Source of the DNA: Lysobacter capsici
GTDB taxonomy: Bacteria; Pseudomonadota; Gammaproteobacteria; Xanthomonadales; Xanthomonadaceae
Reading direction: 5' to 3'
Length of the DNA stretch: 64,000 nucleotides
Assembly: GCF_014779555.2 (NCBI RefSeq)
Contig: NZ_CP094357.1
Coordinates: 5,022,001-5,086,000, forward strand
Below are positions 1 to 1,632 of this stretch, one piece after another. A program made the position numbers and the translations under genes. Under the pieces are notes generated by a model. It did not search any database, was not told where the DNA came from, and saw only the letters and a program-made list of their open reading frames with translations. Each line of letters opens with the position of its first letter. Within the stretch, counting starts at the first letter, position 1.

Positions 1-1021
1 GCCACGGCAATTGCGGATAGTCCCAGTGCGCATGATGCAGGCGTCGCGGATCGATCTCGCCCATCACGCAGGCGCGCAGCTTGGGGTAGTCGACCAGCAG
101 ATCCAATGCGAGCTGATCGAGTTCGACCAGATGCGGCGCGTTTTCCTTGATGTCCACGCACTGGGTCAGTTCGGTCAATGCGCGCGTCGCCGCATGCGTG
201 GCATAGGGCGAAGCGCCGCAGCCGTGCGGAAACACGATTTCCTCGGGCAAGCGTTCCTCGGTCGTGGCGATGAAGGCCGGATAGGCCAGGTCGCTGGTCA
301 CGTCGATCAGCAATACGCGACGTTCGAGACGGCGCTGCGCAAGCTCGTGGATACGCGCAAGCTCGGCCGGCAGCGACGACGGCTCGATCAGGCGACCGTA
401 ACGCGCCGGCGCGCCGAGGTAGTGCGCGAGCATGAACAACGCCCACGCGTCGCGTTCGACGATCTCGCCGATGCCGTGCAGCGCGGCTTCCTCGAAGCTG
501 GCGCCGATCGCGGTGCCGCTGTTGGAGCTGTAGCGGGTCGCGCTGTGGTAGTCGAAATCGTCGCGCGGATCGCGCAACTCGACCGCGGGCGGATAATCGG
601 GAAACACCATGAACAACGGCACGGCCAGATCGGCCCGGCCAGAATACGACGCGTACTGGCGGCACGCCAGATGGCGCTGGGATTGATCGGCGAACTCGGA
701 CACGAACGGCAGGCCGGCGCAGCGCGGGTCGTCGGCGAGTTCGCGCGCGGCTACGAACAGCGGTTCGGTGGCCAGCGCGGACGCGCGGCAGTAGTAGTGT
801 TCGACCGCTTCGTACAAGGCGCCGGTCAACGAGGCGGCGGGTTCGCCCTTGCCGGAACCGCGACTGAGCAGTCGCCCCTGCGCATCGTGCAGGGCGCACT
901 TGATCGTGACCAGGCCATGGCCGAACTCACCGGTCTGCGCGCTCCAGCCGCGCCGCGCGATGCAGGCGTGGATGATGCGGTTGGCCTCGTCCAGGCTGCG
1001 CTCTCGTTCGTACGGAATCAT
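1..1021 (-). CDS. YcaO-domain protein, C-terminus cut by window edge
   Basis: The 340 visible codons encode a YcaO enzyme, the family that uses ATP to activate backbone amides and install azolines, thioamides or amidines on peptides. Two family blocks are clear: SRGSGKGEP followed by an Ala/Glu-rich helix (GALYEAVEHYY), and SNSGTAIGASFEEA followed by GIGEIVERDAWALF, which carry the ATP/Mg-binding Glu and Arg/Asp positions. The ATG at 1021 follows AAGGA. The 3' end lies beyond base 1, so a C-terminal PxPxP tail cannot be checked. It is 85 nt downstream of a 59-codon peptide gene on the same strand, which favours a RiPP-modifying role over the housekeeping YcaO role; that role is inferred. Partner proteins (E1-like, TfuA, dehydrogenase) would have to lie outside the window. 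Confidence 0.85.
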   Translation of the reverse strand, partial: MIPYERERSLDEANRIIHACIARRGWSAQTGEFGHGLVTIKCALHDAQGRLLSRGSGKGEPAASLTGALYEAVEHYYCRASALATEPLFVAARELADDPRCAGLPFVSEFADQSQRHLACRQYASYSGRADLAVPLFMVFPDYPPAVELRDPRDDFDYHSATRYSSNSGTAIGASFEEAALHGIGEIVERDAWALFMLAHYLGAPARYGRLIEPSSLPAELARIHELAQRRLERRVLLIDVTSDLAYPAFIATTEERLPEEIVFPHGCGASPYATHAATRALTELTQCVDIKENAPHLVELDQLALDLLVDYPKLRACVMGEIDPRRLHHAHWDYPQLPW

Positions 1022-1064
1022 TCCTTGTTCCTCGCCAATGGTGCATGCGGTGCATGAGGGCGAA

Positions 1065-1096
1065 CGCATGGCGCGCGACAGTGCGCGCGCCATGCG
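1065..1096 (-). promoter_or_regulatory. 13-bp stem hairpin between peptide gene and ycaO
   Basis: CGCATGGCGCGCG (1065-1077) and CGCGCGCCATGCG (1084-1096) are perfect complements around a 6-nt loop. The stem starts 10 nt after the peptide stop codon and lacks a T-tract on the minus strand. It could be a leaky terminator or mRNA-stabilising stem that raises peptide output over YcaO output, as in many RiPP operons. Confidence 0.7.
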
Positions 1097-1106
1097 GGTT
1101 CAGCGC

Positions 1107-1286
1107 TTACTTGGCGAACTCGTCCAGGAACGCCTGCTCCTGCGCGGTCGGCGCATTGAGCTCGTTCATCGCGACCTTGAAATCCACGCCGGACGCGGCG
1201 CTGCTGACGCGCAGCGCCTCGGTGGACGGGATGTACTTCGGCTTTTCGAGCACGGTCTTTTCGAAATCAAGGCGGGTAGCACCCAT
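1107..1286 (-). CDS. 59-aa peptide, candidate RiPP precursor
   Basis: The ATG at 1286 has an ideal Shine-Dalgarno (AGGAGG, 7 nt upstream), far better than most genes here. The peptide begins MGATRLDFEK and ends AFLDEFAK. It is charged and helical in character, has no Cys, no Gly-Gly cleavage site, no signal peptide, and a small Ser/Ala/Gly patch (SSAASG, residues 28-33). It precedes the ycaO gene with a strong hairpin in between. I do not recognise its family. If it is a YcaO substrate, the absence of Cys argues against thiazoles and for Ser/Thr azoles, backbone thioamide/amidine, or a role as leader or partner peptide. That it is a real gene is well supported; its role as a precursor is inferred. 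Confidence 0.75.
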   Translation of the reverse strand: MGATRLDFEKTVLEKPKYIPSTEALRVSSAASGVDFKVAMNELNAPTAQEQAFLDEFAK

Positions 1287-1632
1287 GACTAAACCTCCTG
1301 TTAGGTCGAAGAGGCACGGACGCGAACCGACGAGGCGGTGTCCACCAGGCTGCGGGCCGTCCTGTGCCGCAGCCTGCGGCTGCGCGATCAGGGTTAACCG
1401 CTGCGACGGACACAGGTCCATGAAGCGCGTCACCAAACCGCGCAGCGGCGGCGCAACCGGGCGACGCGCGGCGCCGATCGCGGAAAATACGGTTCAAACC
1501 TGAAACATCGCGGGCGTTGGAGTGTTCGCTGGCGGCAGGCTATGCACCGGCGCGCACCGCGACGGATGTCTCAGTCGCGGCTTTGCGTCGATCAACTGAA
1601 CACGACAGCGGCGAGCGCCGCCGCCGCGGGTT
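1287..1632. other. Intergenic region upstream of the peptide gene
   Basis: This 346-nt gap should carry the minus-strand promoter for the peptide/ycaO unit. The most AT-rich stretch is near 1485-1510. No convincing operator, terminator or additional gene was seen. Confidence 0.5.

Follow-up and report, generated by a model that had tools for sequence, protein, structure and literature searches.

The window analysed here is a stretch of 64,000 nucleotides, positions 5022001-5086000 of a 6.24-Mb single-contig Lysobacter genome, and at its left end a short peptide gene lies directly upstream of a ycaO gene, both on the minus strand. The peptide gene (1107..1286, minus) is an ORF of 59 codons with its ATG at 1286 and its TAA at 1107-1109, and encodes MGATRLDF...PTAQEQAFLDEFAK, a putative YcaO substrate. 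It is preceded by a perfect Shine-Dalgarno sequence, AGGAGG (1294..1299, minus), which an earlier note on this DNA had called exceptional, and indeed AGGAGG with a start codon 4-9 nt off is found at only 3 sites when both strands of the 64 kb are scanned. The translation has neither Cys nor Gly-Gly, as the same note had observed. Codons T47 to K59 (1110..1148, minus) specify a predicted capped C-terminal helix with the pattern TxxE. The hairpin that had been reported 10 nt after the peptide stop and before ycaO is confirmed at 1065..1096 (minus), with 13 perfect pairs and a 6-nt loop. No sigma-70 promoter was found in a scan of the locus, and Rfam gave no match over 900-1700.

The ycaO gene (PF02624) occupies 1..1021 on the minus strand, comprising its start and first 340 codons, and runs left beyond the window. 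The whole gene is L004:17751-19022, for a protein of 423 aa that begins MIPYERERSL. We place the start at the ATG at 1021 because MIP[YL]ERER opens all 23 Lysobacter YcaOs, that of the window included; the start at 1093 given by the ORF finder, which is inside the hairpin, was rejected on the same ground. The gene has the peptide gene on its right and a convergent rtcR on its left, and to the right of the unit there is a gene for a transpeptidase-domain protein. The YcaO is a single-domain, unfused protein with no partner gene adjoining. With regard to the S12-accessory form of YcaO near ribosomal genes, which the earlier note named as a finding that would go against its reading, the YcaO_C domain is absent and no ribosomal gene was recognised to the left of ycaO when the ORFs were scanned by eye. 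The note had also advised looking leftward for TfuA, and here the search was negative, the left neighbour being rtcR, with no PF07812 match anywhere in the genome.

The assignment of the enzyme is clear, with a match to PF02624 at E 1.3e-31 and 110.6 bits (cut-off 25.7). Residues E71, E74, E178, E186, E189, R190, R280 and E284 are invariant in 9 sequences, 4 of them from Lysobacter and distant relatives included, and we take these Glu and Arg residues to be the Mg/ATP (nucleotide) site. An AlphaFold2 model of the protein has a mean pLDDT of 85.8, and in a structure search its top match is the archaeal stand-alone YcaO of M. jannaschii (Z 32.6, rmsd 3.8, 357 residues), followed by a second archaeal stand-alone YcaO (Z 31.8, rmsd 3.4, 337 residues), then LynD, MusD and McbD, and then E. 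coli YcaO (Z 23.7). Bottromycin YcaO is not among the matches, an absence that carries no weight. In a YcaO tree with distant relatives some Lysobacter clades were resolved and the deep order was not, and the program warned of long branches; we base nothing on it.

The hairpin is distinctive in the window, where perfect stems of at least 13 pairs with loops of 3-8 nt occur in only 3 places, and a stem this long was found in none of 100 mononucleotide shuffles of the intergenic stretch. It lacks a T-run and is not called as a terminator in a consensus scan. In clade A all 9 loci, a count that takes in L008 with its imperfect stem, have the hairpin with 13 pairs and 99.1% of cells paired. Five pairs are changed on both sides across the 9 loci and are thus compensatory, and the covariation score of 0.331 compares with 0.156 in shuffles (0/500), and with at most 0.130 when the register is slid. 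By a strict count of perfect stems over all 23 loci there are 14 with at least 10 bp and 9 with a shorter stem, and a T-run follows the hairpin in two (L026 and L027). A dispersed repeat was considered and rejected, the arm being no commoner than chance in the 64-kb window. We read the hairpin as an element that lowers expression of ycaO relative to the peptide.

The genome has three YcaO genes, all over the cut-off in a PF02624 profile search and each with a peptide gene upstream, and one of the two pairs outside the window lies about 1.7 kb right of its end. The other two copies have 45-codon peptide genes, with products that end PTPEEKAILDLLAK and LTAKEKSFLDQYAK as against PTAQEQAFLDEFAK in the window, and their YcaOs are 52% and 50% identical to that of the window. 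One of these paralogues was scanned for YcaO_C and also lacks it; the flanks of both copies were read by eye.

A search of 60 relatives at E 1e-20 found 23 related ycaO genes, all in Lysobacter, and none in 40 non-Lysobacter relatives; with 11 of 20 genomes having them, the presence of the pair in Lysobacter is patchy. The peptide gene is 70-161 nt upstream of ycaO in 23/23 Lysobacter loci, and the peptides at all of these loci end in L[DE]xxAK. Such conservation, which extends to 24 loci, rules out a chance ORF. A peptide profile gave 24 confident matches in the 20 Lysobacter genomes, every one at a ycaO locus; 3 further matches (E ~0.014), inside 865-aa frames, were judged to be chance. The profile was built from the same peptides, and the search therefore tests the absence of solitary copies. 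Solitary homologues of the peptide had been named in the earlier note as evidence against its RiPP reading, and there were none among the confident matches. Peptide and ycaO are one-to-one in 22 of the 23 loci. At the exception (L018 925-1417, in G017) two different peptide genes stand in tandem before one ycaO, with a hairpin predicted after each, the second being a perfect 11-bp stem. In one other locus (L010) the YcaO frame is closed by an in-frame TAG nine residues earlier than usual.

The peptides themselves are not recognised by existing models: Pfam gave no match for 3 of them, and NCBIfam nothing for 10 except 1 meaningless match at E 0.011. Among 18 peptides there are 7 invariant columns, of which 5 (T47, E50, L54, A58 and K59) are in the C-terminal segment T47-K59, as its invariant T, E, L, A and K. 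The remaining two, M1 and K10, are outside the C-terminus, which counts against a reading based on C-terminal docking. The N-terminal halves are of four quite different kinds with one common C-terminal motif; the window peptide and those of the g48 genus discussed below start Met-Gly, and the three MKK subtypes do not. Within subtypes dN is less than dS in 33 of 34 peptide pairs, the remaining pair being identical (the pairs are not independent, and the groups omit L018). Amino-acid change is most constrained in the last 15 codons, which have pN 0.039 and pS 0.189, the rest having pN 0.086 and pS 0.217. Peptide and YcaO distances are strongly correlated (Mantel r 0.945, 0/5000 permutations), common descent explaining part of this. 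From the excess of dS over dN and the correlation of distances we conclude that the peptide is a translated gene evolving with its enzyme. The AlphaFold2 model of the peptide is weak overall (mean pLDDT 72.9, pTM 0.29); the last 19 residues alone reach a pLDDT of 86-87, and there it has a helix at 48-58. Since T47 immediately precedes this predicted helix, the T-x-x-E pattern looks like a helix capping box.

Beyond Lysobacter the family is rare, being found in 4 of 398 phylum genomes and 3 of 369 class genomes, our own included. The peptide profile found no match outside Lysobacter in 247 genomes of the family at E 0.001, the divergent 30-aa g48 peptides being beyond its reach, and a YcaO profile run on the same 247 genomes adds one genome, of genus g48. 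In this sister genus of the same family a search of 91 genomes gave four YcaO loci, distributed over three of them. At the three loci that are close relatives there is an upstream 30-aa peptide, MGIF[NG]IPFLISG...LQLNAQE[IV]ALLG; the fourth YcaO (32% identity) has no upstream peptide. No convincing peptide was seen upstream at G800, G292 or the second YcaO of G744 (L094). The G800 gene (L102), from a 1.4-Mb genome of the same class, is a YcaO relative at E 3.9e-51 with no recognisable upstream peptide.

Plasmids are another source of relatives. A tblastn search matched 145 records, mostly Rhizobium apart from the 6 that were examined, which cover 69-93% of the query at 27-34% identity and have a short upstream peptide in all 6 cases; there was no YcaO match in phage records. 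The peptide is annotated as a 'hypothetical protein' in Streptomyces NBC_01707, Pantoea and Vibrio sp. 16, and was found by its ribosome site in Vibrio europaeus, Acinetobacter and Nonomuraea, that of Nonomuraea being picked among three candidate frames. The unit is followed by a gene for a SagB-type dehydrogenase in Streptomyces, a methyltransferase in Pantoea and Acinetobacter and an ABC transporter in Vibrio. The Pantoea (L086) and Acinetobacter (L087) records have an identical YcaO protein and the same gene order, for which the explanation may be a wrong name on one of the records or movement of the plasmid. In Nonomuraea (L089 5685-10718) the unit is among protease-like, large NTPase-like and subtilase-like genes as judged by eye, which together might make up a conflict or signalling island, and an S8 peptidase is annotated near the Streptomyces unit (L085).

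Taking 10 kinds of peptide together, 7 begin Met-Gly and 7 are without Cys. The pattern [LIVMPK][TSN]xxExxx[ILVF], containing a possible helix-cap motif [TSN]xxE, is present in 9 of the 10 and missing in Vibrio sp. 16; the motif was chosen after viewing the peptides and also turns up in 2-9% of the shuffled versions of each. Beyond the motif a further 10 to 24 residues are present in Nonomuraea, Pantoea and Streptomyces, and the helix is not terminal there. Rhizobia-like loci (L079, L080 and L081, from G525, G381 and G319) have a peptide gene for 43-47 aa upstream of YcaO, with a good ribosome site and a product ending [TV]HAL[KR]FR. In L107 and L108, which were compared, no more than ~20 nt separate the end of the peptide gene from the YcaO frame, and TfuA comes after YcaO (by Pfam in L107). 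These upstream peptides are a candidate for another precursor family.

The pairing of peptide and ycaO is solid on genome evidence. That the peptide is the YcaO substrate, as the earlier note proposed, is supported by the pairing in 23/23 loci and we hold it to be highly probable; since peptide and enzyme always travel together, an unknown natural product is very probably made from the peptide. The proposal as a whole, a two-gene RiPP-type module present in three copies in this genome, seems to us on balance the better reading. In it the peptide would probably be made in excess over the enzyme, having a strong ribosome site and then a hairpin that damps ycaO. The capped C-terminal helix would dock on YcaO as a follower, and YcaO would spend ATP on activating at least one backbone amide within the N-terminal or central region of the peptide, without an E1-like partner or TfuA encoded beside the unit. 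Later cleavage and export would need genes elsewhere. For the docking step, which draws on a predicted helix, we see the chances as evenly balanced. The Lysobacter and g48 peptides have little or nothing beyond the helix, and therefore there is no room for a conventional C-terminal core; by analogy with bottromycin we infer that the helix may be a 'follower' and that the core it presents to the partnerless YcaO is N-terminal or central. Our first guess for the chemistry is an amidine, and it is a tentative one, with azoline formation at Ser/Thr and then a thioamide as the order in which we would consider other products. Against the module reading, there is no protease, exporter or tailoring gene within the two-gene Lysobacter unit, which is unusual for a secreted RiPP, and the peptides are conserved within subtypes and not hypervariable, which would fit a regulator or partner subunit.

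Of the other explanations the one that survives best is a thioamide module, in which the stand-alone YcaO puts sulfur in place of a backbone oxygen of the peptide, with free sulfide or a sulfur carrier of household metabolism as the source. Archaeal McrA YcaOs thioamidate without TfuA, the two nearest folds (Z 32.6 and 31.8) are archaeal stand-alone YcaOs, and the Lysobacter peptides have no Cys to cyclise. The E. coli YcaO acting on uL16 also works without TfuA (PMC13063428). However fold rank says little about chemistry, this genome has no TfuA, and the nearest TfuA-linked YcaO examined, a rhizobia-like one (E 3.9e-19 over part of the profile), adjoins its TfuA, and we consider a thioamide unlikely. 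Somewhat less likely again is a role for the peptide as small partner or activator of YcaO, standing in for an E1-like or leader-binding protein, with another protein or peptide as true substrate. The high conservation of the peptide, its predicted helical C-terminus, the nearly strict one-to-one pairing and the lack of processing genes in the unit all fit this, but a strong ribosome site followed by a hairpin, the presence of two peptides with a single enzyme at G017 and four different N-terminal halves on one C-terminal motif do not, and we prefer to see the peptide as the substrate. That YcaO modifies a household protein, for example a ribosomal one, with the peptide a regulatory leader of ycaO, has in its favour the upstream position and intervening hairpin, as in attenuation, and the fact that uL16 is the target of E. 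coli YcaO (PMC13063428), but is very improbable given the purifying selection on peptide amino acids, the patchy presence in 11 of 20 Lysobacter genomes, the three paralogues and the lack of a YcaO_C domain.

Most stand-alone YcaO proteins of Actinobacteria are stated to be of unknown function (PMC8442711), and the same seems to hold outside Actinobacteria. In the Lysobacter family an enzyme can be matched to a definite peptide, in a soil genus that makes antibiotics, and because the unit consists of two genes the question of the substrate can be put to one co-expression experiment. The family also allows guidance of a YcaO by a C-terminal follower to be tested outside bottromycin. In L. gummosus a YcaO gene is reported as 2.5-fold up and listed among antibiotic genes, with three L. 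capsici orthologues also raised, and peptides are not mentioned in that account of these genes (PMC10745450). The occurrence of three in one genome fits their being members of the peptide-paired family described here. The Lysobacter peptides were not found described in the literature searched, subscription papers and supplements being outside its scope.

With regard to known systems, we propose that the Lysobacter pair belongs among the YcaO-dependent RiPP systems, its mechanism being likewise a proposal. E. coli YcaO, which carries out uL16 thioamidation, has its fold in common with the Lysobacter enzyme (Z 23.7), but it has the YcaO_C domain that the Lysobacter YcaO lacks and there is no BLASTP similarity (best E 0.54), and this type was rejected. 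YcaO-TfuA pairs have the YcaO domain in common, and the rhizobia-like ones also a short peptide directly upstream, but with 0 PF07812 matches in the genome a TfuA-type system was rejected as well. The earlier note expected that this would not be a conventional thiazole peptide, and a conventional TOMM was indeed rejected: there is no Cys in 24/24 Lysobacter peptides, the SagD model TIGR03604 gives 65.2 bits, under its cut-off of 219.25, and PxPxP is absent from the last 50 residues of all 23 Lysobacter YcaOs (4 of the 23 have an internal one, at 335-337). TIGR03882, the sole E1-like model used, gave one partial match in the genome, at 24.6 bits against a cut-off of 36.9 and far from the units.

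In streptamidine (ami) systems, surveyed in Actinobacteria and six Firmicutes, a stand-alone YcaO is near a short, often unannotated peptide without a Ser/Thr/Cys-rich region, and the product is an amidine (PMC8442711). The Lysobacter stand-alone YcaO likewise adjoins a short peptide. In the main type of ami cluster the YcaO is accompanied by iron transporter genes and by AmiB, which fold prediction places with the E1-like proteins, as well as by a hydrolase, a dehydrogenase and ABC transporters, and the ami family includes 22 members without the paper's own motifs (PMC8442711). In contrast the ALV motif of ami precursors is in none of the 24 Lysobacter peptides, and it is rtcR and the transpeptidase-domain gene, not AmiB, AmiC, AmiE and transporter genes, that flank the window unit.

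The bottromycin YcaOs BtmE and BtmF are said to work without a partner protein (PMC8442711; PMC7136475), although the amidohydrolase BtmI is proposed as a helper of the macrocyclising one (PMC5103208), and by this description the Lysobacter YcaO, unfused and with no partner gene adjoining, is alike. The bottromycin precursor BtmD is not rich in Cys, Ser or Thr (PMC4603692), its core comes after a Met-Gly start (PMC5103208), and with the core N-terminal it is the C-terminal follower that is bound by the machinery (PMC7136475). The window and g48 peptides likewise start Met-Gly, and the conserved, predicted capped helix at the C-terminus of the Lysobacter peptides may be such a follower. However there is one YcaO per Lysobacter locus, the methyltransferases, P450, amidohydrolase and aminopeptidase of bottromycin are absent from the two-gene unit, and the precursor model NF033414 matched none of 10 peptides up to E 10 with HMMER filters on. 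We would suggest, as a possibility that we hold at somewhat short of even, that partnerless two-gene YcaO systems constitute a new RiPP class, found in Xanthomonadaceae, on plasmids of other Gammaproteobacteria, and in Actinobacteria. Its peptides, most of them without Cys, would undergo backbone editing of the amidine or another non-azole type, directed by the capped helix as a C-terminal follower. Among stand-alone YcaO systems the closest described relatives of the Lysobacter pair in working are bottromycin and streptamidine.
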